Origin: Polynucleobacter sp. 71A-WALBACH
Lineage (GTDB): Bacteria; Pseudomonadota; Gammaproteobacteria; Burkholderiales; Burkholderiaceae
Direction: 5' to 3'
Assembly: GCF_018882365.1 (NCBI RefSeq)
Contig: NZ_JACVOP010000001.1
Coordinates: forward strand, 1,363,341-1,427,340
DNA: 64,000 nt
Positions within the stretch are counted from its first letter, which is position 1, and each line of letters opens with the position of its first letter. The position numbers and the translations under genes were made by a program. A model generated the notes under the pieces. The model did no database searches. It was not told the DNA's origin and worked only from the letters and a program-made list of their open reading frames with translations. This document shows, piece after piece, positions 24,521 to 46,286 of the stretch.

Positions 24521-24554
24521 TTGTCATAAAAGAGTCATACACAGATCGTATCGT
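24521..24554 (+). promoter_or_regulatory. PhoB box and probable -10 of pstS
   Basis: Two direct half-sites with 11-bp period, TTGTCAT (24521-24527) and GAGTCAT (24532-24538), match CTGTCAT at 6/7 and 5/7. A possible -10, TATCGT (24549-24554), follows at about 10 bp, the spacing expected when PhoB replaces a -35 element. The first half-site also forms the right arm of a perfect 20-bp palindrome at 24511-24530. Confidence 0.75.
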
Positions 24555-24598: not shown

Positions 24599-25621
24599 AT
24601 GAAATCATTCTTGAAAAAAGCGTTAGTTATTAGCGCAATTTCAATTGCTCCAGTCACTTTTGCTGCTGATATGACTGGTGCTGGTGCAACATTCCCATAC
24701 CCAATTTACGCTAAATGGGCCGAAGCTTTTAAAGCAAAAACTGGCTCTAACTTGAACTATCAATCTATTGGTTCTTCAGGTGGCATTAAACAGATTAAGG
24801 CAAAAACTGTAGATTTCGGTGCGACCGATAATCCAGTGAAATTCGAAGATCTAGAAAAAGATGGTTTAGTTCAATTCCCGGCAATTATTGGTGGCGTTGT
24901 TCCAGTCATCAACGTCGAAGGAGTAAAACCAGGCGAAATTAAGTTAGATGGCCCAACATTGGCTGATATTTTCCAAGGCGTCATTTCTGATTGGGGTGAT
25001 AAGCGTATTGCCATCATGAACCCAGGTGTAAAGATTCCTTCAGGTCCTATTACAGTAGTTCATCGTGCTGATGGCTCTGGCACAACAGCTATTTTTACCG
25101 ACTACTTAGCTAAAACTAGCACACTCTGGAAAGATGCTGTTGGTGCAGGAGCTGCTGTTAAGTGGCCAGCCGCCTCATCTGTTGGCGGCAAAGGTAATGA
25201 GGGTGTAGCTGCAAACGTATCCCGTGTAAAGAACTCAGTTGGTTACGTTGAATATGCTTATGCTAAGAAAAACAAAATGACTTATATCTCTTTGAAGAAT
25301 AAGGATGGTAATTTTGTTGCCCCTGATGATTTGACATTCGCCGCTGCAGCAGCTGGTACTGATTGGGCGAAGGTTCCAGGGATGGGTACATTCATCACTA
25401 ATGCAGGTGGCGCTAAGTCATGGCCAATTACTGGTGCTTCTTTTATTCTCTTGTACAAGAACCCTGAAAACAAAGCAAATGCTGCTGAAGTTATTAAGTT
25501 CTTCGATTTTGCATTCAAAGATGGCAAGAAGATGGCGGAAGAGTTGGATTACGTTCCAATGCCTGATGCAACTACAGAATTTATTCGCAAGAATGTATTC
25601 ACAAAGGTCATTACTAAGTAA
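24599..25621 (+). CDS. pstS: Phosphate ABC transporter, periplasmic phosphate-binding protein
   Basis: This 340-residue protein captures phosphate in the periplasm and delivers it to PstCA. A signal peptide (about 1-22, ending TFA-AD) is followed by MTGAGATFPYPIYAKW. The phosphate-contacting segments SIGSSGG and HRADGSGTTAIF are visible, with the conserved C-terminal region around LDYVPMP. It is the first gene of the pst-pho operon, preceded by a Pho box and followed by an intercistronic hairpin. Confidence 0.96.
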   Translation: MKSFLKKALVISAISIAPVTFAADMTGAGATFPYPIYAKWAEAFKAKTGSNLNYQSIGSSGGIKQIKAKTVDFGATDNPVKFEDLEKDGLVQFPAIIGGVVPVINVEGVKPGEIKLDGPTLADIFQGVISDWGDKRIAIMNPGVKIPSGPITVVHRADGSGTTAIFTDYLAKTSTLWKDAVGAGAAVKWPAASSVGGKGNEGVAANVSRVKNSVGYVEYAYAKKNKMTYISLKNKDGNFVAPDDLTFAAAAAGTDWAKVPGMGTFITNAGGAKSWPITGASFILLYKNPENKANAAEVIKFFDFAFKDGKKMAEELDYVPMPDATTEFIRKNVFTKVITK

Positions 25622-25626
25622 GGATT

Positions 25627-25650
25627 GATGATTGAGATTTCTCATTCATC
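25627..25650 (+). other. Imperfect hairpin between pstS and pstC
   Basis: An 11-bp stem with one mismatch (25627-25637 with 25640-25650) lies directly after the pstS stop. Together with the next hairpin it may stabilise the pstS 3' end. Confidence 0.45.
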
Positions 25651-25658
25651 TTCAAATA

Positions 25659-25685
25659 ACAGCTCCACTTAACATGGGGCTGTTT
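25659..25685 (+). terminator. Intercistronic attenuator between pstS and pstC
   Basis: An 8-bp stem (25659-25666 with 25676-25683, one T-G wobble, 9-base loop) followed by a short T run. A partial terminator here would keep PstS in excess over the membrane components, as is typical for binding-protein operons. Confidence 0.55.
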
Positions 25686-25708
25686 CAATATTTATACAAG
25701 TAGAATTT

Positions 25709-26698
25709 ATGATTGAATCGACCCAGTCTCATTCAGCTCCGACGCCACAAGCGCTCCGTATTGCTAAGTTACAGCGTATTCAGGATTTCTTATTCCACGG
25801 CATCACGCAATTCTTTGCTCTATCTGTATTAATTGCTTTGCTTGGAATCATGATCTCGCTTGCTATCAATGCTTGGCCAGCGCTAAGCACTTTTGGACTT
25901 GGATTTTTCTTCACCCAAGAGTGGGATATTGTGAATGGTGAGTTTGGCGGTCTGATAGCTATCTACGGCACCTTGGTAACTTCCTTGATTGCCTTATTGA
26001 TTGCTGTTCCTCTCAGTTTTGGCATTGCTGTTTTCCTCACGGAATTATGCCCGGGCCCTCTACGTAGGCCCCTAGGTACGGCAGTGGAATTGTTAGCGGC
26101 AGTGCCATCTATCATCTACGGCATGTTTGGTTTATTTATTTTTGCACCGCTGTTTGCGGAATATATTCAACCTGCCTTAGCTGTAACCCTCGGGAAGATT
26201 CCGGGGTTGGGTATTTTATTCTCCGGCGCATTTAATGGTATCGGTGTTCTGTGTGCGGGCCTAATTTTGGCAATGATGATTCTGCCTTTTATTGCTTCTG
26301 TAATGCGAGATGTTTTTGAGATTGTCCCGCCAGTGCTTAAAGAGTCCGCCTATGGCATTGGTTGCACAACTTGGGAAGTGGTGAAGAACGTTGTGCTGCC
26401 TTACACCAAAGCGGGTGTGATTGGCGGCGTAATGCTAGGTTTGGGTAGGGCTCTTGGTGAAACTATGGCCGTAACCTTTGTAATTGGTAATGCGCACCGT
26501 TTATCACCATCCTTATTCGCCCCCGGAACCTCTATTGCATCCACATTGGCCAATGAGTTTGGTGAGGCTGAGGCAGGTAACCATTTGTCCTCTTTGTTCG
26601 CCTTAGGACTAGCGCTATTCATTATTACCTTCGTTGTCTTGGCATTCGCTAAATGGATGCTGAGCAATATGGAGAAGAAGCAGGGCTTAAAAACATGA
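25709..26698 (+). CDS. pstC: Phosphate ABC transporter permease PstC
   Basis: The 329-residue inner-membrane permease has about six to seven TM segments. The EAA loop facing the ATPase is seen as [31 protein letters not shown] in two parts, and [16 protein letters not shown] is typical of the first periplasmic loop. It pairs with PstA. The stop overlaps the pstA start (ATGA). Confidence 0.95.
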
Positions 26699-27561
26699 AC
26701 AACATTTCGAATATTGATCCAGCTGTTTTTGCAAAACGTAAGCGTGCCAATAAGATTGGCTTAGCTTTGTCTATGGGTGCCATGGGCTTAGGCATGATCT
26801 TTCTGCTTTGGATTCTGGGTGTATTGGTAATTAAGGGATTTTCAGCGCTTGATATAACCCTCTTTACTCAAAGCACTCCAGCTCCGGGATCCGATGGTGG
26901 CGGTTTAGCTAATGCAATTGTCGGTAGCTTAATGTTGGTGGGTTGCTGTACTTTAATCAGTACACCAATTGGCGTCTTAGCAGGCTTGTATCTTTCGGAA
27001 TACGGTGACCGCAGTCGCATCGCTTCGATTACTCGTTTTGTTACCGACATTATGCTTTCCGCGCCATCTATTGTGATCGGCTTATTTGTGTATGCATTTG
27101 TTGTTGCACAAGTGCGTCACTTTTCTGGTTGGGCCGGCACGATTGCTTTGGCTTTGATTGCTATTCCAGTGGTAGTTCGTACTACTGAGAACATGTTGCG
27201 CTTGGTGCCCGGTAGCTTACGAGAGGCGGCCTATGCTTTGGGTACACCAAAGTGGAAAGTGGCTTTCATGATCACATTAAGAGCTGCGCAAAGCGGTGTG
27301 ATGACAGGTATTTTGTTGGCCTTGGCTCGTGTGAGCGGTGAAACTGCTCCCTTGCTCTTTACTGCTCTTAATAATCAATTTTTCTCTACCAATATGAACG
27401 CCCCAATGGCGAACTTACCAGTAGTAATCTTTCAGTTTGCGATGAGCCCCTATGACAACTGGGTTGACCTCGCATGGGGTGGCGCTTTATTGATTACTTT
27501 TGCCGTATTGGGCTTAAATATTTTGGCTCGTGTGGTATTCCGAGAGAAAGTACAAGGATGA
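26695..27561 (+). CDS. pstA: Phosphate ABC transporter permease PstA
   Basis: The 288-residue second permease subunit. The ATG at 26695 overlaps the pstC stop and is favoured over the longer frame. The EAA motif [15 protein letters not shown] and the opening periplasmic loop [20 protein letters not shown] are conserved. It forms the phosphate channel with PstC and is coupled to pstB by an ATGA overlap. Confidence 0.95.
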
Positions 27562-28403
27562 TGAGCAATATGAAAACAATGTTTGACTTAAATCAGGTTG
27601 ATAGTCAGGGAGCTAGAATGGATACAACCCAACCGACCCAACGAGAAGTTAAAAATGCGCTTGAAGTGCGCAATCTTAATTTCTTTTATGGCACATTTCA
27701 GGGTCTGAAGAATATTAATTTGGATATTGAAGAAGGAAAGGTCACTGCTTTTATTGGACCATCCGGGTGTGGAAAATCGACTTTACTTCGCACTTTAAAT
27801 CGTATGTATGACTTGTATCCCGGCCAGCGTGCTGAAGGCGAGATTAACTTTTATGGCCAGAATATTTTAGAGCCTGGACAAGATCTTAATTTACTTCGCT
27901 CAAGAATTGGTATGGTCTTTCAAAAGCCAACACCTTTTCCAATGTCAATTTATGAAAATATTGCATTTGGTGTGCGCCTCTACGAAAAGCTTTCTCGCTC
28001 TGAAATGGATGAGCGGGTAGAGTGGGCACTTAATAAGGCCGCCTTGTGGACTGAGGCAAAAGACAAGCTAAATCAAAGCGGCCTATCTCTTTCAGGCGGT
28101 CAGCAGCAACGCCTGTGTATTGCACGCGGTGTCGCAGTGAAGCCATCAGTTATTTTGCTTGACGAACCAACTTCAGCCTTAGATCCAATCTCTACTGGAA
28201 AAATTGAAGAGTTGATCAATGAACTCAAGCATGAATATACGATTGCTATCGTTACTCACAATATGCAGCAGGCGGCTCGCGTGTCGGATTACACTGCTTA
28301 CATGTATCTTGGAAGTCTGATTGAGTACGGTAAGACGGATGAAATCTTCATCAAGCCAAAACGCAAAGAAACAGAAGATTACATTACCGGCCGTTTCGGT
28401 TAA
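27558..28403 (+). CDS. pstB: Phosphate ABC transporter ATP-binding protein
   Basis: The ATPase of the Pst transporter, 281 residues from ATG 27558 (a second ATG follows at 27561), with AAGGA just upstream. Walker [12 protein letters not shown], the signature LSGGQQQRL, Walker [14 protein letters not shown] and the H-loop VTHNMQQA are all intact. About 35 residues precede the core domain. PstB also takes part in PhoR/PhoU signalling of phosphate sufficiency. Confidence 0.96.
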
Positions 28404-28415
28404 TTGGAGAGCTAA

Positions 28416-29123
28416 ATGCCAGATAAACACCTTTCATCGCAGTTTGATGCCGATTTAAATTCCCTCTCGAGTCGTTTGCTTGAGATGGGGGGCTTGGTAG
28501 AGTCGCAGATTTCAACAGCGATGCGCGCCTTTACGCAGATGGACATTGAAACCTGTAATGTTGTGATTCAGAATGAAAAACAGGTTAATGATCTTGAAAT
28601 TCAGATTGACTTGGCATGTACTGAGTTGATCGCACGCCGTCAACCTACGGCTCGTGACCTGCGCTTGGTAATGGCGGTATCTAAAGCGATTACCAATTTA
28701 GAGCGGGCAGGGGATGAAGCTGAGCGCGTTGCCAAAAGAACGAAGCGTTTAATTGAAGCTGGGGCTACTCACAACATTAACGTAGCTGAAATTCGTCTTT
28801 CAGGCCAAATGGCAATTTCACTATTGCGTCGAAGCTTAGATGCTTTTGCTCGCTTGGATACCGTAGCTGCAGCAGATGTAGTGCAAGAAGACCGCCAGAT
28901 CGATGAAGAATTTAGAGGATTCGTTCGTAAGTTGATTTCCTACATGATGGAAGATCCCCACACCATTACCACTGGTCTTGACATGTTGACTATTGCTAAG
29001 GCGATTGAGCGTATCGGTGACCATGCGAAAAATATCGCTGAATTCGTAATCTATATTGCTAAAGGGTCTGACGTACGTCATATTCCTCATGAGGATTTGG
29101 TTCGCGAGGCAAATAGACCATAA
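28416..29123 (+). CDS. phoU: Phosphate-specific transport regulator PhoU
   Basis: The 235-residue all-helical protein restrains Pst activity and keeps PhoR in the inhibitory state when phosphate is plentiful. Two repeats of the PhoU three-helix bundle with E/DxxxD metal motifs are visible (ERAGDEAERVAKRTKR in the first, ERIGDHAKNIAEF in the second). It follows pstB by 12 bases and precedes phoB. Confidence 0.96.
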   Translation: MPDKHLSSQFDADLNSLSSRLLEMGGLVESQISTAMRAFTQMDIETCNVVIQNEKQVNDLEIQIDLACTELIARRQPTARDLRLVMAVSKAITNLERAGDEAERVAKRTKRLIEAGATHNINVAEIRLSGQMAISLLRRSLDAFARLDTVAAADVVQEDRQIDEEFRGFVRKLISYMMEDPHTITTGLDMLTIAKAIERIGDHAKNIAEFVIYIAKGSDVRHIPHEDLVREANRP

Positions 29124-29143
29124 ATTAAATCAATACGGAATTC

Positions 29144-29860
29144 ATGATGACTCACCGCATATTGATAGTTGAAGATGAGCCTTCTATTGCAGAGCTGATT
29201 GCCATTAACTTGACCCATGCTGGATATGAGGTTGAGAAGGCTATGCAAAGTGATATCGCGCTAAATATGATGCGCGATGAATTGCCTAGTCTACTGATTC
29301 TAGATTGGATGTTGCCGGGAAAATCTGGCGTTCAATTTGCCAGGGAGTTGCGCGCAAATGATCGCACTCGATCGTTGCCCATTCTCATGCTTACTGCGAA
29401 AAGCGAAGAGTCTGATAAAGTTTTGGGTCTTGACTCCGGGGCTGATGATTACGTCACTAAGCCTTTTTCACCAAAAGAATTGGTTGCACGCGTAAAAGCG
29501 CTGTTACGCCGTCAAACTCCAATTGAGGATACCGGGCCATTATCTGTTGGTCCATTGAGGCTGGATCCGCTTTCACACCGCGTTACTGCCATTTGGCCCA
29601 ATATGGATCCTCAATCACTTTCACTAGGCCCTACGGAATATCGATTGTTGCAGTTTTTAATGGCCAATCCTGAAAGGGTGCATTCCAGAGCTAACTTGTT
29701 AGATAAGGTCTGGGGTAATGAGGTCTACATTGAAGAGCGCACAGTTGATGTTCATATTAAAAGGTTGAGGGCTGCTTTAGCTTCATCGGACTGTGATCGC
29801 TATATTGAGACTGTTCGGGGAAGTGGTTACAGAATTACTAAGATCCCTACCCAGACCTAA
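29144..29860 (+). CDS. phoB: Phosphate regulon response regulator PhoB
   Basis: The 238-residue OmpR-family regulator has a receiver domain with acidic pocket EDE (residues 10-12) and phospho-acceptor Asp 54 in LLILDWMLPG. The winged-helix DNA-binding domain ends YIETVRGSGYRI. It binds tandem 11-bp-spaced CTGTCAT half-sites; several such sites are seen across the following 20 kb. The start may be ATG 29144 or 29147. Confidence 0.96.
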   Translation: MMTHRILIVEDEPSIAELIAINLTHAGYEVEKAMQSDIALNMMRDELPSLLILDWMLPGKSGVQFARELRANDRTRSLPILMLTAKSEESDKVLGLDSGADDYVTKPFSPKELVARVKALLRRQTPIEDTGPLSVGPLRLDPLSHRVTAIWPNMDPQSLSLGPTEYRLLQFLMANPERVHSRANLLDKVWGNEVYIEERTVDVHIKRLRAALASSDCDRYIETVRGSGYRITKIPTQT

Positions 29861-29921
29861 TTAGCTTGGGGCTTCCAGGCGGGTTATCTACCCCAGCATC
29901 AAGATGCTCTAAGATTGTCGT

Positions 29922-31220
29922 ATGTTATCCGTAATCACCCGTTTTTCCCTGCTCATTTCCCTGGGATTTCTTGCCGGCTATATCGCCTTAATTAATTTAG
30001 GCCCCCTATCTGGAATAGCGGCCGGAATCTTTGTTCTTGCTATTCCATTAATCTATTCCTATATTAATTTAGCGCGCTTAAGAAAATTTACGCTGACCGA
30101 TTCCGTTGAGTCCATGCCATTGCCTAGCGGGTACTGGGAGGAGATTTTTTTCCGACTTCAACGTTTAGTCCGAAACCTTAAGCAAGAAATTAGGACAATA
30201 GAAAAACAGCACGATCGTTTTATTGAAGCATTCCAAGCTTCACCTAATGGCATCGTAATGCTTGATGATCAAGATCAAATTGATTGGTGTAATGCCATTG
30301 CTGAGCGTTTCTTTGATCTCAACTTTAAGCGTGATGCACTGCAAAGAATTAACTTTCTTATTCGCCGCCCCGAGTTTGTTCAGTATCTCTATAGGCGTCA
30401 ATTTGAGGAGCCATTGTTACTTGAGCGCATGGGACCCAGCTCGAACCTCAGTCTGATGTTGCAAGCTTTTCCTTTTGGGGATAAACGCCATCTCTTGCTG
30501 ATCCAGGATGTCACAGATTTACAAAAAGCAGATGCGATGCGGCGAGATTTCGTGGCTAATGTGTCTCATGAAATGCGTACCCCAATTACCGTATTGATGG
30601 GTTTTTTAGAAACGATGCAGTCGCTTGATCTGGATAAAGCACAGCAAAATCAGTATTTTGAGATGATGATGTCTCAGGCTCAGCGAATGAGGAGTTTGGT
30701 AGAGGACTTGTTAACCCTAGCCAATCTTGAGGCTAATACCTTACCAGCGCCAATGCAGGTAATTGATATTCCCACGATCATGGCACTCCTCAAGAATGAT
30801 GCGGAAGCGCTTTCGCAGGGGCGCCACGCGTTTCATTTCAATGTCGCTAGCCAAAGCAATTTGATGGGCGAAGAGCGCGAGATTCTCTCGGCATTTGGGA
30901 ATCTCGTTTCCAATGCGATTCGCTACTCTCCTGATGATGCTTCAGTCAGCGCAAACTGGAGTGTGAATAGCCTTGGTGAGGGTGAATTTTCTGTAACCGA
31001 TACCGGGCCAGGCATTGCTTCAGAGCACCTCTCTCGATTAACTGAGCGGTTTTATCGTGTAGATAGAAGCAGATCTAGGGATACCGGAGGAACTGGATTG
31101 GGATTGGCGATTGTCAAACATATTGCTAATCGCCATCAAGCTCAATTGATTATTGAGAGCGCTCCTGGAAAGGGGAGTACATTTAAGTTGCGCTTTCCAA
31201 AAGAGCGCATTGTGGGTTAG
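29922..31220 (+). CDS. phoR: Phosphate regulon sensor histidine kinase PhoR
   Basis: The 432-residue kinase has two N-terminal TM helices (about 8-26 and 30-50) with almost no periplasmic loop, as in E. coli PhoR. A charged linker and a PAS domain (about 98-200) follow, then the H-box FVANVSHEMRTPITVL with phospho-acceptor His 216. The ATPase domain has the N box GNLVSNAIRYSPD and G boxes TGPGIA and GGTGLGLAIVK. It senses the state of Pst/PhoU and controls PhoB. Confidence 0.95.
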   Translation: MLSVITRFSLLISLGFLAGYIALINLGPLSGIAAGIFVLAIPLIYSYINLARLRKFTLTDSVESMPLPSGYWEEIFFRLQRLVRNLKQEIRTIEKQHDRFIEAFQASPNGIVMLDDQDQIDWCNAIAERFFDLNFKRDALQRINFLIRRPEFVQYLYRRQFEEPLLLERMGPSSNLSLMLQAFPFGDKRHLLLIQDVTDLQKADAMRRDFVANVSHEMRTPITVLMGFLETMQSLDLDKAQQNQYFEMMMSQAQRMRSLVEDLLTLANLEANTLPAPMQVIDIPTIMALLKNDAEALSQGRHAFHFNVASQSNLMGEEREILSAFGNLVSNAIRYSPDDASVSANWSVNSLGEGEFSVTDTGPGIASEHLSRLTERFYRVDRSRSRDTGGTGLGLAIVKHIANRHQAQLIIESAPGKGSTFKLRFPKERIVG

Positions 31221-35276: not shown

Positions 35277-35312
35277 TTGTCACAAAAGCTTCATTAAATT
35301 GAAACATATAGT
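35277..35312 (+). promoter_or_regulatory. PhoB box candidate before the small ORF and arsC-like gene
   Basis: TTGTCAC (35277-35283) and GCTTCAT (35288-35294) are direct half-sites with 11-bp period. A -10-like TATAGT (35307-35312) follows about 12 bp later. The second half-site is imperfect. Confidence 0.5.
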
Positions 35313-35368: not shown

Positions 35369-35545
35369 ATGAAGCTAAAAACGAACTTATCTCAATTGTT
35401 TCGTCAGCCTGATGTCAAATCAGCTCTTCAATATATGGCGTCAGAAAAGCAGATCCATATGACTCCTGCTTGCTCAGTCAAATCAAAAGATAGACCTTTT
35501 TTAGTCGATCGAAAATATGCTTTGCAATTAGATGAAATTATTTAA
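35369..35545 (+). CDS. Small protein of unknown function downstream of a Pho box
   Basis: The 58-residue peptide starts at ATG 35369, preceded by GAGG; a longer in-frame start at 35324 has no ribosome-binding site. It is basic, contains RQPDVKSALQYMASEKQ and a single Cys, and has no signal peptide or TM helix. I do not recognise it. It sits directly after the Pho-box-like promoter and 11 bases before the arsenate-reductase-like gene, so both are probably PhoB-controlled. Confidence 0.55.
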   Translation: MKLKTNLSQLFRQPDVKSALQYMASEKQIHMTPACSVKSKDRPFLVDRKYALQLDEII

Positions 35546-37624: not shown

Positions 37625-37658
37625 CTGTCACATTACTGTCATTAAGAGTGTCCATATT
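37625..37658 (+). promoter_or_regulatory. PhoB box and -10 of the alkaline phosphatase gene
   Basis: CTGTCAC (37625-37631) and CTGTCAT (37636-37642), 11 bp apart, are essentially perfect matches to the E. coli Pho box. A -10-like CATATT (37653-37658) follows at 10 bp. This is the best PhoB site in the window. Confidence 0.85.
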
Positions 37659-40451: not shown

Positions 40452-40499
40452 ACTTATTTCAGCAAGGAAACTAGTAGACTGGCAGATCTTTTCACAAAT

Positions 40500-40528
40500 A
40501 TGTCATGATAATTTCATAAAATAGACAT
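40500..40528 (+). promoter_or_regulatory. PhoB box before ppx (three half-sites)
   Basis: Three half-sites with exact 11-bp period: ATGTCAT (40500-40506, 6/7), ATTTCAT (40511-40517, 5/7) and TAGACAT (40522-40528, 4/7). They lie 32 bases before the TTG start of ppx. Confidence 0.6.
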
Positions 40529-40560
40529 ATTCATTTAAGCGCAGGGCTATTGGAACTATC

Positions 40561-42125: not shown

Positions 42126-43064
42126 CTAGAGACCTAAAAAATGCTTCGCGTAGCGTGGATTGATTTCTGATAAACGCAGCATAGTTAGAACGTCTGCTGT
42201 ATTGAAGTCTGGATCCCAGGCCGGAGCACTACAAATTTTTGCCCCTAATTTAAGGTAACCCTTGATCAAGGGCGGCGGCTCCACCTCTAGGCCACCATTG
42301 AGGCGATCCAACGGTAAAGGTAGGCGTGGAAAAGCGTGGTTTTCTACTGGCGCCATTTGATCGTTACTAAGAGAGTTATAAAGGCTAGCAGCAAAGTGAC
42401 CTCCATCCGCCATAGGAATGCTTGCGCAGCCGAGCATGATTTCATAATCATGTTTTTGCATATATTGAGCCAGACCGCTCCAGAGTGCCATGATCACTGC
42501 GCCAGAGCGATAGTCCGCGTGAACACAAGATCTGCCCAACTCAACCATTTTAGGGCGCAAATGATTTAAACGCGATAAATCAAATTCAGAATCGGAATAT
42601 AAACGCCCAATTTCGGAAGCTTTGTGAGGGGGCAATACGCGATACGTTCCTACAACCTTTAGTGATTCTTGGTCGCGAATAAGTAAGTGGTCGCAATAAG
42701 CATCAAACTCATCAATATCTAAGTTTTCTGCATTTTTGGGCAAGTTAGCGCCCATTTCTTCGGCGAATACCTTGTATCGCAAGCGCTGCGCCTCTTTAAT
42801 CTCACTGGCATTGCTGGCCCATGTAATTTGAAGTGCAGGGCGTTTTGACTTGGCTACTGCCTTTTCAAGGGCGACCGGCTCTTGAATGCTTAACTCAGTA
42901 CGCGTTCTCGTAGCAAACTTTTTCCCAAATAATTTTTTAGCCATCTTCTTAGAAAAGAGCTTTTTAATAACTTCTGTTTTGTTTTTATTCTTCTTCTTTG
43001 GCTTACCCTCAAAGCGTGAGTTGAAGATATCGAATGCGCCTAAGGGGTTTGGAATGTCAGACAT
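42126..43064 (-). CDS. olsB: OlsB-like N-acyltransferase (GNAT/COG3176, often called hemolysin)
   Basis: A 312-residue protein with a very basic N-terminal about 60 residues and then the OlsB-type acyltransferase domain. Family segments are EAQRLRYKVFAEEMGA, DEFDAYCDHLLIRD, VGTYRVL and ELGRSCVHADYRSGAVIMALW. OlsB attaches a 3-hydroxy fatty acid to ornithine, giving lyso-ornithine lipid, a phosphorus-free membrane lipid. The assignment rests on the family and on the position as last gene of the plcP-agt-dgkA operon; related acyltransferases could use glycine or other amines. Confidence 0.72.
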   Translation of the reverse strand: MSDIPNPLGAFDIFNSRFEGKPKKKNKNKTEVIKKLFSKKMAKKLFGKKFATRTRTELSIQEPVALEKAVAKSKRPALQITWASNASEIKEAQRLRYKVFAEEMGANLPKNAENLDIDEFDAYCDHLLIRDQESLKVVGTYRVLPPHKASEIGRLYSDSEFDLSRLNHLRPKMVELGRSCVHADYRSGAVIMALWSGLAQYMQKHDYEIMLGCASIPMADGGHFAASLYNSLSNDQMAPVENHAFPRLPLPLDRLNGGLEVEPPPLIKGYLKLGAKICSAPAWDPDFNTADVLTMLRLSEINPRYAKHFLGL

Positions 43065-43105
43065 AGTTTTCCTTTATTAATTCTTCTGATGTTAGAAGTG
43101 CTGTA

Positions 43106-43510
43106 TTACCAATTCATGACAAGTGGCGTGCAGATAGTGATCCAAAGTAGTGCTGCAATTAGCAGGGCCAACATCACCGCAGCTGATCCAAAGTCCTTTG
43201 CTCTTTTGGATAGATCATGGTGATCAAATGAGATGCGATCGATAGCTGCCTCAACGCTCGAGTTCAATAGTTCAACTACTAGAACCATCACTATTGAGAC
43301 GATCAAGACGCATTTTTCAAGAGGGCTAATTGGCAGAAACAGTGCTACTGGGGTAAGCAATACAAGTAGTGTCAGTTCCTGTCTAAATGCACTTTCTTCC
43401 TTAAACGCGTAAACAATCCCGCACCACGAGTTTTTGGCTGCATGCCACGCCCTAGTAACCCCACGATTCCCTTTATGGGGATTTTGTTTAATGTTGTAAG
43501 GGGTAGTCAA
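43106..43510 (-). CDS. dgkA: Diacylglycerol kinase
   Basis: The 134-residue integral membrane kinase phosphorylates diacylglycerol to phosphatidate. The family signature VELLNSSVEAAIDRIS followed by HHDLSKRAKDFGSAAVM is complete, with three TM helices. In this operon it is 9 bases downstream of the agt-like gene, so it can act on the diacylglycerol released by the PlcP-like enzyme and compete with the glycosyltransferase for it. Confidence 0.92.
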   Translation of the reverse strand: MTTPYNIKQNPHKGNRGVTRAWHAAKNSWCGIVYAFKEESAFRQELTLLVLLTPVALFLPISPLEKCVLIVSIVMVLVVELLNSSVEAAIDRISFDHHDLSKRAKDFGSAAVMLALLIAALLWITICTPLVMNW

Positions 43511-43519
43511 AATAAGGCC

Positions 43520-44548
43520 TTAAGCTAGAGCAGTCACATGAACTTCGGGTGATGGGACGGGCTTGAGGTGATTAACAAATTGCTCGGAAGCTGCTCTCCA
43601 GGAGAATTTCTCGGCATGCTCTCTAGCTAATTCACGAGGGATTTTGAGAGCCTGCATGCAAGCCTCACGCAAATCCTCATTCATTGCGCCTGCAGGTGAC
43701 TTACCTAGGACATCTATTGGGCCTGTAACTGGATAAGCCGCAACAGGGGTGCCACAGGCCATTGCCTCAAGTAACACCAGGCCAAATGTGTCCGTTTTGC
43801 TGGGGAAGACGAATACATCAGCTGCTGCATAGACTTTGGCTAATTCATGTTGCTGTAAAACTCCGAGATAATTAATGTTGGGATATTTTTCTTTAATGGC
43901 GGCCATTGCTGGACCATCACCAACAACCCATTTGGAGCCCGGTAGGTCAATCTCTAGAAAAGCATTGATATTTTTTTCAACAGCAACTCGACCAACATAC
44001 AAAAAAATTGGATGGGCGGTATTAAGCGCCTTGGAATCTTGCATTTTAAAAATATCCAGATCTACACCTCTAGACCACAACACCACATTATTTAAGCCGT
44101 ATTTTTCTAGATCATCTTTAACTACGATAGTTGGCGCCATCACTGCCATGGAGGGCCCATGGAACCAGCGTATGAACGCGTAGGTAATAGCGAGTGGAAT
44201 TCCAGTACGGGCTTTGACGTACTCCGGAAAGCGGGTGTGATACGCGGTCGAAAACGGAAGTTTATTTTTGACCGCATAGGAGCGGGCAGATAATCCTAAT
44301 GGACCTTCTGTAGCAATATGCATAGCATCTGGCGCAAATGCTTTAATTCTGCGGGCAACTTCTTTCCCTGGAAAAAGTGAGAGTGCGATATCGGGGTAGG
44401 TAGGGCAGGGAATAGATTTAAACCCATTTGGCGTAATCATCTCCACTTCATGACCCATGCTAATTAATTCGGCGCGAGTTTGTTTGAGTGTTCTCACAAC
44501 GCCGTTCACTTGCGGATCCCATGCATCGGTGATGATCATAATTTTCAT
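43520..44548 (-). CDS. agt: GT4-family glycosyltransferase, Agt-like glycolipid synthase
   Basis: The 342-residue GT-B glycosyltransferase has the donor-site signature VFPSKTDTFGLVLLEAMACG and the N-terminal DPQVNGVVRT loop seen in lipid glycosyltransferases (SqdX/MgdA/Agt types). Its start overlaps the stop of the PlcP-like gene (ATGA). Agt enzymes next to plcP in marine and soil bacteria glycosylate diacylglycerol to glucosyl- or glucuronosyl-diacylglycerol under phosphate limitation. The sugar donor cannot be read from sequence. Confidence 0.78.
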   Translation of the reverse strand: MKIMIITDAWDPQVNGVVRTLKQTRAELISMGHEVEMITPNGFKSIPCPTYPDIALSLFPGKEVARRIKAFAPDAMHIATEGPLGLSARSYAVKNKLPFSTAYHTRFPEYVKARTGIPLAITYAFIRWFHGPSMAVMAPTIVVKDDLEKYGLNNVVLWSRGVDLDIFKMQDSKALNTAHPIFLYVGRVAVEKNINAFLEIDLPGSKWVVGDGPAMAAIKEKYPNINYLGVLQQHELAKVYAAADVFVFPSKTDTFGLVLLEAMACGTPVAAYPVTGPIDVLGKSPAGAMNEDLREACMQALKIPRELAREHAEKFSWRAASEQFVNHLKPVPSPEVHVTALA

Positions 44549-45354
44549 GCGCTAACCTCTTTGATAAGTGTTTCAATTGCGGGTTGGAAGGGGATTTCAG
44601 AAGCTTGGACTGGATCGCCTTTAATCTGAGTCCAATAAATAATTTTGAGTTCGCCAGTAGTGGTCTCAACTAGAGCTGAGAGACTTTCAACCCAGTCACC
44701 ATCGTTGCAATACAACAGGCCATCAATCTCACGGATTTCTGCCTTATGGATATGGCCGCATACGACTCCATCACAATTACGTAAGCGCGCCTCTCTAGCC
44801 ATAATGTGTTCAAAGTCGGCGATATAACTCACCGCATTCTTAACTTGATGCTTGAGGTATTGAGAAAGGGACCAGTATTGGAGGCCCATCTTTACGCGCA
44901 ACATATTGAAGTAGCGGTTGATATACAGGATGAAGGAATACATTGAGTCGCCAACATAAGCAAGCCATTTGGCATATTGCATGACTCCATCAAATAGATC
45001 GCCATGGGTGACCCAAAGTTTGCGACCATCTAAAGTGGTATGAATAACCTCTTCCTCAACCTTGATATCACCAAAGGACATGCCAAAGTATTGCCGGGCA
45101 CTTTCATCATGGTTACCTGGAATATAAATTACCTCAGCACCTTTACGGGCCTTGCGTAGTAACTTTTGTACAACATCGTTGTGAGCCTGTGGCCAGTAGA
45201 AAGATCTTCTCAGTCTCCAGCCATCGATGATGTCACCAACTAAATAAAACTGATCAGCTTCATTATGTTTTAAGAAATCGAGGAGGTAGTTAGCCTGACA
45301 CCCCGATGTTCCTAGGTGTACATCCGAAATCCAGATAGCTCTGTAGTGCGTCAT
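44545..45354 (-). CDS. plcP: PlcP-like phospholipase C (COG2908 metallophosphoesterase)
   Basis: The 269-residue calcineurin-like phosphoesterase has metal ligands Asp11/His13 (SDVHLGTSGCQAN), Asp41 (GDIIDGW), Asn81-His82 (GNHDE), His117 (THGD) and His201/His203 (GHIHKA). It resembles LpxH, but the opening motif, YWPQAHNDVVQKLLRKARKG and the genetic link to a glycosyltransferase fit PlcP, which hydrolyses phosphatidylcholine/ethanolamine-type lipids to diacylglycerol and a phosphorylated head group. It is first gene of the plcP-agt-dgkA-olsB operon, with a Pho box upstream. Confidence 0.8.
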   Translation of the reverse strand: MTHYRAIWISDVHLGTSGCQANYLLDFLKHNEADQFYLVGDIIDGWRLRRSFYWPQAHNDVVQKLLRKARKGAEVIYIPGNHDESARQYFGMSFGDIKVEEEVIHTTLDGRKLWVTHGDLFDGVMQYAKWLAYVGDSMYSFILYINRYFNMLRVKMGLQYWSLSQYLKHQVKNAVSYIADFEHIMAREARLRNCDGVVCGHIHKAEIREIDGLLYCNDGDWVESLSALVETTTGELKIIYWTQIKGDPVQASEIPFQPAIETLIKEVSA

Positions 45355-45389
45355 GAGTAAGCATTAAGCCTACTCATGATGTAATCCTC

Positions 45390-45418
45390 GTGACACATTT
45401 AAGTCAGTTTGATGACTT
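45390..45418 (-). promoter_or_regulatory. PhoB box upstream of plcP (three half-sites)
   Basis: Read on the minus strand: AAGTCAT (45418-45412), CTGACTT (45407-45401) and GTGTCAC (45396-45390), each 11 bp apart, matching CTGTCA(T/C) at 5/7, 4/7 and 6/7. It lies 36 bases before the plcP start in the divergent region shared with the plsC/olsA-like gene. Confidence 0.6.
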
Positions 45419-45439
45419 GATTTATATTGATACTTGCTT

Positions 45440-46234
45440 ATGAAAAAATCTTCCCAAAATCACAAAATAAATGAGACGCCAATAATCTTGCGTATTTGGG
45501 TGTGGACTCAAATTTGGGTTCATGTCATGTGCGGCGTCTGTACCTTGTCACTTGTATTTCCGTTTTTAGATCGCAGAAATAAACATCGAGCGATCCAGAA
45601 GTGGTCAAAGCATCTTCTGAGAATATTCAATATTGAGCTTATCGTGCAAGACGGCGCATTGCTCGGAAACATACCTCACTTAATTGCCGCAAACCATATT
45701 TCTTGGTTAGATATCCATGTGATTAATGCGTTTAAGCCTATTTGTTTTGTTGCCAAGTCTGAGGTAGAAGGGTGGCCAATATTTGGCTGGATGGCTAAAC
45801 AACTTGGCACGCTATTTATTAAAAGGGATAGCGCGCGCGACGTAAGGCAAGTAGTGAATCAGATGGCGGAGGTATTGAAAGCCGATTCCGTCTGTATTTT
45901 TCCTGAGGGAACATCTACGGCAGGTGAAAGTGTGCTGCCCTTTAAGCCCAATCTTTTTGAGACTGCGATTTTGGCCCAGACCCCTGTTTTTCCGCTTGCG
46001 CTTCAGTATTTATCGAAAACTACCGGAAATAGAAGTGAATCTCCCGCTTTTATTGGCGAAATGGGCCTTTTGGAGTCTATGTCTAACATCATTAAAAACC
46101 GCGCTTTGGAGGCGAAAATCACCATCCTGCCGGCATTTCCCTGGTCTCAGCAGACAATAATCCCTGCTGATCGAAAGCAAGTGGCGAGCTATTGCGAGAA
46201 TTTCATTGCCAAAACCCTAGAACAGCAAATGTAA
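45440..46234 (+). CDS. PlsC-family 1-acyl-glycerol-3-phosphate / OlsA-like acyltransferase
   Basis: A 264-residue acyltransferase starting at ATG 45440 (TTG 45434 less likely). An N-terminal hydrophobic helix is followed by the HX4D catalytic motif in AANHISWLDIHV and the substrate motif FPEGTSTAG. PlsC acylates lysophosphatidate; the close relative OlsA acylates lyso-ornithine lipid. The position, divergent from plcP and in a cluster with an OlsB-like gene, favours an OlsA role, but sequence alone does not decide. Confidence 0.82.
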   Translation: MKKSSQNHKINETPIILRIWVWTQIWVHVMCGVCTLSLVFPFLDRRNKHRAIQKWSKHLLRIFNIELIVQDGALLGNIPHLIAANHISWLDIHVINAFKPICFVAKSEVEGWPIFGWMAKQLGTLFIKRDSARDVRQVVNQMAEVLKADSVCIFPEGTSTAGESVLPFKPNLFETAILAQTPVFPLALQYLSKTTGNRSESPAFIGEMGLLESMSNIIKNRALEAKITILPAFPWSQQTIIPADRKQVASYCENFIAKTLEQQM

Positions 46235-46257
46235 TAAAAATGTCATATCCTTGAGAT
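46229..46257 (+). promoter_or_regulatory. PhoB box before ppk2 (three half-sites)
   Basis: ATGTAAT (46229-46235), ATGTCAT (46240-46246) and TTGAGAT (46251-46257), 11 bp apart, match CTGTCAT at 5/7, 6/7 and 4/7. The site overlaps the stop codon of the upstream acyltransferase gene; a TATTGA -10 candidate follows. Confidence 0.55.
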
Positions 46258-46286
46258 ACAAAGAAAGTATTGATTTAGGGGATGAA

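Follow-up and report, generated by a model that had tools for sequence, protein, structure and literature searches.

In the genome of Polynucleobacter sp. 71A-WALBACH, a short array of repeats resembling PhoB half-sites lies between a plcP-like gene and a divergent acyltransferase gene. Does PhoB control membrane lipid genes from this array, and which of the two sides would respond? An earlier note on the window, that is the whole stretch of 64,000 nucleotides analysed here, had described three minus-strand heptamers spaced by 11 bp, AAGTCAT, CTGACTT and GTGTCAC, with 36 bases between the inner edge of the triple and the plcP ATG at 45354. The letters, the spacing and the distance were all found as described (Table 1). 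Each heptamer has two mismatches out of seven relative to CTGTCAT, and there is no second triple of such a kind on either strand of the window. Taken alone, the triple is weak evidence because first-order Markov simulations that preserve the dinucleotide composition yield 0.41 triples per window on average, with at least one in 66 of 200 simulated windows. When a fourth unit with at most three mismatches is added, the expectation drops to 0.03 per window. Such a unit, ATTACAT, had been overlooked, so that the array counts four half-sites and not three; the -10 element CTTAAT was also absent from the earlier note. All four units carry two or three mismatches to CTGTCAT. A genome-wide consensus scan allowing two mismatches returned 45 sites, against 53 with the reversed control; it showed no enrichment, did not include the plcP array, and was dropped as support. 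The significance of the array comes from its conservation and not from its match to the consensus.

We propose, with a probability of about 0.75, that the array is the PhoB-activated promoter of a plcP-agt-dgkA-olsB membrane-remodelling operon, with transcription starting at or just before the plcP ATG, an internal Pho promoter serving olsB, and the olsA-like gene not activated by the array.

Table 1. Features of the plcP region and Pho promoters of the window used for comparison (window coordinates; half-site matches are given relative to CTGTCAT).
Feature	Coordinates	Strand	Remarks
PhoB half-site 1 (predicted), AAGTCAT	45412..45418	-	at least 5/7 matches in 78/79 loci
PhoB half-site 2 (predicted), CTGACTT	45401..45407	-	at least 5/7 in 67/79 loci
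PhoB half-site 3 (predicted), GTGTCAC	45390..45396	-	at least 5/7 in 79/79 loci; GTCA invariant
PhoB half-site 4 (predicted), ATTACAT	45379..45385	-	at least 5/7 in 42/79 loci; T[AT]CA in 79/79
-10 region GGCTTAAT, hexamer CTTAAT at 45368-45363	45363..45370	-	10 bp past half-site 4
8 nt GCTTACTC + ATG, predicted leaderless start	45352..45362	-	transcript start expected at about 45356-45354
plcP-like metallophosphoesterase, first operon gene	44545..45354	-	Pfam Metallophos; name given by context
agt-like GT4 glycosyltransferase	43520..44548	-	ATG overlaps plcP stop; same-strand match in 79/80 loci
dgkA, prokaryotic diacylglycerol kinase	43106..43510	-	PF01219; same-strand match in 78/80 loci
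Internal Pho box TTGTCATGAATTGGTAAT (43122-43105), N10, TAACAT, before olsB	43089..43122	-	predicted
OlsB-like ornithine N-acyltransferase	42126..43064	-	NF052555, 180 bits, cut-off 320; same-strand match in 77/80 loci
OlsA-like acyltransferase	45440..46234	+	best model OlsA, 130.8 bits, cut-off 300
Probable -10 of olsA-like gene, TATATT	45423..45428	+	
phoB and phoR	29144..31220	+	TIGR02154 and TIGR02966, above cut-off
pstS Pho box, -10 TATCGT at 10 bp	24521..24554	+	comparison site
phoA Pho box, -10 CATATT at 10 bp	37625..37658	+	comparison site
ppx Pho boxes, units 11 bp apart, -10 TAAAAT or TATTCA at 10 bp	40489..40533	+	
ppk2 Pho box, -10 TACAAA at 10 bp	46229..46262	+	comparison site

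A single scan provided 80 named plcP loci of the Polynucleobacter type, 50 of them titled Polynucleobacter and the rest being MAGs named to higher ranks only. Upstream DNA was present in 79, corresponding to 77 distinct promoters, and was aligned without gaps from the plcP ATG. The compared species are related, and all locus counts are those of non-independent events, uncorrected for phylogeny. The closest named locus has a plcP gene 95% identical to that of the window. In the 79 loci the conserved columns formed four blocks at 11-bp steps, followed by a GGCTTAAT block at positions -16 to -9. The registers -64, -53, -42 and -31 were the top four of 92 offsets, with mean half-site scores of 5.14, 5.10, 6.41 and 4.63 of 7, respectively, compared to an all-offset mean of 1.94. 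Half-site 3 was the best conserved unit; together with half-site 4 it makes up the two successive halves of the core box proposed below. The hexamer at -14 to -9 was strongly conserved (CTTAAT in 63 loci, CCTAAT in 11 and other letters in 5). The promoters are not uniform: their median pairwise identity was 0.65 between -75 and -1, and 0.34 between -110 and -67. Among 18 further loci of the same genus, NNNAAT occupied the same place before the ATG in 17, L217 being the exception (read by eye). As to the gene itself, 11 of the 151 genomes from the genus Polynucleobacter, some being incomplete, gave no plcP match, and matches were broken or weak in others; outside the genus, a broken plcP was likewise seen in a single genome (L254).

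Other promoters of phosphate genes allowed the geometry of the array to be compared. For each of pstS, phoA and ppx, 61 Polynucleobacter-genus genomes were searched, and the comparison was made on the 30 loci obtained per gene. The start was aligned in 25 phoA rows, of which three with a box score below 12/18 were dropped and 22 kept. For ppk2 the named loci were used, 67 of them being usable. Exactly 10 bp after the best box, TANNNT was present in 30/30 pstS loci and 21/30 ppx loci, and NANNNT in 21 of the 22 kept phoA loci. After the ppk2 box the same distance led to TACAAA, TAAAAA or TATAAA in 50/67 loci. At plcP, the 10-bp spacing seen at these four promoters leads from unit 4 to CTTAAT, and the spacing between the pho box and the core promoter is considered strict (PMC10294691). 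A -10 element placed 10 bp past pair 1-2 or pair 2-3 was rejected: columns -36 to -31 and -25 to -20 hold no run like that at -14 to -9, and show single conserved columns of up to 1.66 bits (inside unit 3) and up to 1.32 bits, respectively. Some peculiarities of the comparison sites were also visible. The ppx promoter (40489-40533, +) has four tandem half-site-like units and two alternative -10 elements, both at the 10-bp spacing, and the ppk2 Pho box (46229-46246, +) shares bases with the olsA-like stop codon. A Pho-box-like site, TTGTCACAAAAGCTTCAT, followed by N10 and CATATA, was seen at 35277 (+) before an ORF of 58 residues (35369-35545); this ORF stays a lead, its four matches in the examined loci having boxes of only 11-12/18.

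A matrix built from the pstS, phoA, ppx and ppk2 boxes, without plcP, was run over the whole window as the earlier note had suggested. It placed the overlapping plcP pairs 2-3, 1-2 and 3-4 at ranks 10, 11 and 19 among 127,966 window positions, pair 3-4 being weak (9.6 bits, below the 99.99% background of 11.7) and falling to rank 33-114 with smaller matrices. The matrix is no blind test, because the E. coli consensus had served to select its rows, and the 10-bp spacing is a more independent test. The best-scoring pair was 2-3 in 50 of the 79 loci, 1-2 in 25, 3-4 in 3 and another offset in 1. Because pair 3-4 scores weakly and is so rarely the best, the assignment of units 3-4 as the core rests on the spacing and on the other genera of the family.

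Of 200 genomes of this family, 173 had a plcP match, and the upstream DNA was read for 32 chosen loci from 14 other genera (10 + 16 + 6). A half-site-like pair (4-7 of 7 letters) followed by N8 and GGCNNAAT was present in 26/32 loci and 12/14 genera, a strong resemblance and not a blind count, because the layout formed part of the score by which sites were chosen. This arrangement is that of plcP units 3-4 with GGCTTAAT, and most of the 26 loci have a GTCAY-like unit at the place of half-site 4. The layout was absent in six loci of two genera (g21 and g22), one of which satisfied the letter rule, though its half-sites were poor, and was left out of the count. Since the same layout recurs in other genera, units 3-4 would represent an old core box. 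An in-frame ATG lies 27-32 nt past the hexamer in 26/26 layout-bearing loci, compared to 8 nt in Polynucleobacter; as GGCNNAAT is kept despite this greater distance, it is probably a part of the promoter and not of the start codon. The true plcP starts in these genera are uncertain because 10/26 loci also have a nearer in-frame start codon, which overlaps the hexamer in five (in L241 an ATG is 7 nt away). Counted from the first in-frame start, the PlcP N-termini of the 26 loci are 46-90 residues longer.

The position of the hexamer relative to the coding sequence has a consequence for translation. In 78/79 loci, 8 nt separate the end of NNNAAT from the ATG (the exception, L081, has CACAGT), and for this reason the plcP message is predicted to be leaderless. 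Transcription of plcP is expected to begin no more than about 3 nt from the ATG, and the likely start is downstream of all four units, which would leave the repeats outside the transcript. The start codon is ATG in 79/79 loci. The nearest in-frame upstream stop is at -6 to -18 in 76 of them and further off in three, a possible alternative start being present between stop and ATG in 2/79. The longest Shine-Dalgarno match before plcP was 3 nt in 69 loci, 4 nt in 9 and 6 nt in 1; matches of at least 4 nt were found at 29/30 pstS and 42/64 ppk2 loci. In a published survey, leaderless genes are marked by a TA-like signal of the form TANNNT, located about 12 bp ahead of the start (PMC3160421). The centre of the plcP hexamer falls at this position, about 12 nt ahead of the start codon; the hexamer reads CTTAAT, not TANNNT. 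Mapped leaderless messages exist in Burkholderia cenocepacia (PMC4603805).

It could be argued that plcP is transcribed from a more distant upstream promoter, with a leader of the usual kind, and that the conserved GGCTTAAT has another function. CTTAAT is indeed poor as a -10 element, with 4/6 matches to the consensus and no A at the second position, and pairs 1-2 and 2-3 outscore pair 3-4. Against this, the distance between hexamer and box equals that of the other Pho promoters, and 12 other genera retain GGCNNAAT with an equal gap to the half-site pair. We consider an ordinary leader doubtful. There is in our opinion an even chance that Polynucleobacter fused a PhoB promoter to the first codon of plcP, with loss of the leader and of the N-terminal extension, and that the result is a starvation message with its AUG at the start site, leaderless and driven by a four-unit array. 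If true, PlcP, unlike PstS, would be translated without reliance on Shine-Dalgarno pairing when phosphate is short. This leaderless fusion may be the new part, the promoter type itself being already known. In the literature searched, which left most subscription journals outside, no article combined Polynucleobacter and plcP, and those joining "leaderless" and "Pho box" dealt with other subjects, as judged by their titles.

The earlier note had also suggested that the divergent gene, which it called plsC/olsA-like, shares the control by PhoB. This gene does not reach the OlsA NCBIfam cut-off, hence the name OlsA-like only, and scored 100.1 bits on the 1-acylglycerol-3-phosphate acyltransferase (PlsC-type) model (cut-off 102.95). 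A second PF01553 acyltransferase gene exists elsewhere in the genome, beside ORFs that we take, from their translations, to be gmhB and ksgA. Its best model is of the PlsC type (80.3 bits, same cut-off), and the name plsC was rejected for the divergent gene on the OlsA model, to which the two genes gave 130.8 and 49.4 bits, respectively. An olsA-like match faces the array in 79/79 loci, and the half-sites are oriented toward plcP. TATATT was located in 56 loci, separated from unit 1 by 4 bp in 32 of them, by 18-25 bp in 22 and by another interval in 2; it was not found in the remaining 23. On the olsA-like strand, the best matrix score per locus averaged 5.7 bits (maximum 13.2). The variable distance and the low scores on this strand indicate that no fixed PhoB geometry exists toward the olsA-like gene, and, with the orientation of the half-sites, they speak against the shared control.

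A dual role of the array, in which PhoB would activate plcP while blocking or activating the olsA-like gene, draws on the 32 loci with the 4-bp distance, where a -35 element at 17 bp would fall inside unit 2, and on the fact that PhoB is a dual regulator (PMC10294691). Competition at the olsA-like -35 position is possible in this group. A regulatory function toward both genes is nevertheless unlikely, as the spacing is not kept and the half-sites point in one direction. In Acinetobacter, moreover, olsB has a Pho box and responds to phosphate, whereas olsA lacks both the box and the response (PMC11828411). As a separate observation, an ATG was present 10-12 nt after the olsA-like TATATT (45423-45442, +) in 40 of 56 TATATT-bearing loci; this ATG may not be the start, and if it is, the olsA-like message may be nearly leaderless too.

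Which protein would read the repeats? The phoB and phoR genes are in the window, in a segment (24599-31220) with genes presumed from their translations to be pstS-C-A-B and phoU. Further phosphate genes of the window are those of an alkaline phosphatase (37695), ppx (40561) and ppk2 (46287). The DNA-binding domain of this PhoB is close to that of E. coli and aligns to E. coli PhoB chains, including 1gxp; the stretch that we take to be the recognition helix shows few differences. A different OmpR-family regulator reading direct repeats at 11 bp might bind the array in place of PhoB, since other members of the family read 7-bp direct repeats with a 4-bp spacer (PhoP, PMC4832192). We find this improbable, because the plcP pairs are picked up by a matrix made from the pstS, phoA, ppx and ppk2 boxes, the -10 spacing is equal at all of these promoters, and the phosphate genes are beside phoBR. 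It is hardly credible that the dyad AAGTCA-N6-TGACTT in units 1-2, a perfect 6-bp dyad in the window, is the true operator of a dimeric regulator of another type, and this candidate was dropped, as the dyad is perfect in only 17/79 loci whereas units 1, 2 and 3 have at least 5/7 matches in 78, 67 and 79. The proposal of the earlier note that PhoB drives the lipid operon holds as a prediction, supported by the genus-wide register, by a motif and spacing shared with the pstS, phoA, ppx and ppk2 promoters, by phoBR in the window, and by the core layout in other genera. Control of plcP by PhoB is very likely on this sequence evidence, from which we infer PhoB binding and a response to phosphate.

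The product of the first gene of the operon matched no curated PlcP model; the best NCBIfam model was of the LpxH type (42.6 bits, cut-off 134), and the gene adjoins the agt-like glycosyltransferase gene. The same-strand counts of the operon genes in Table 1 include 12 of 80 loci whose sequence extends less than 3.2 kb past the start of plcP. Further along the operon, the box before olsB scored at least 12/18 in 56/76 loci, and TANNNT followed exactly 10 bp on in 49 of these 56, none being seen at shifts of 1-3 bp. The box overlaps the 3' end of dgkA, so that some of its conservation may reflect the coding sequence. An internal Pho promoter of olsB within the plcP operon is thereby predicted, and Pho boxes have been predicted before olsB in Burkholderia sensu lato (PMC7814305).

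We propose the following model of the plcP promoter. Upon phosphate starvation, phospho-PhoB would occupy the four half-sites head to tail. Units 3 and 4 would replace the -35 element and hold the RNA polymerase on CTTAAT, 10 bp downstream, with units 1 and 2 as an extra upstream pair, probably the tighter one. Transcription would start 0-3 nt before the plcP ATG or at the ATG itself, giving a practically leaderless message that lacks a Shine-Dalgarno site. Inside the operon, olsB would be served by an additional Pho promoter, and the divergent olsA-like gene would use its own -10 element, with no activation by the array. Under this model, a freshwater genus would have its genes for glycolipids and ornithine lipids controlled by PhoB, with a genus-wide signature usable for annotation, while the array gives no ground for counting the divergent olsA-like gene in the regulon. 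It also makes plcP a natural case for asking whether a gene required under phosphate starvation tends to adopt leaderless translation.

Pho boxes before plcP and agt are already known (PMC8528852, PMC4796936). In P. aeruginosa PA3219-PA3218 and in marine heterotrophs, a PlcP-type gene is likewise found with a glycosyltransferase gene, with a Pho box, CTGTCATNNNNCTGTCAT, in the promoter (PMC8528852, PMC4796936). In comparison with promoters of the PA3219-PA3218 type, the four half-sites, the -10 element 8 nt from the ATG, and the presence of dgkA and olsB in the operon were read from the Polynucleobacter locus alone. A predicted Pho box likewise precedes olsB in Burkholderia sensu lato and Acinetobacter (PMC7814305, PMC11828411), whereas the Polynucleobacter box is inside the plcP operon and overlaps the end of dgkA. 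The E. coli PhoB promoters, in which the pho box lies over the -35 position, share the tandem direct repeat, with a PhoB dimer placed beside sigma and RNA polymerase (PMC3348028); plcP differs by a predicted start codon at the start site and by the extra upstream pair. Known leaderless genes, including those of B. cenocepacia, likewise have a -10-like element just before the ATG and little or no Shine-Dalgarno sequence (PMC3160421, PMC4603805). Compared with these, plcP has CTTAAT in the place of TANNNT, a predicted activator of starvation genes, and a genus-wide retention of the arrangement.
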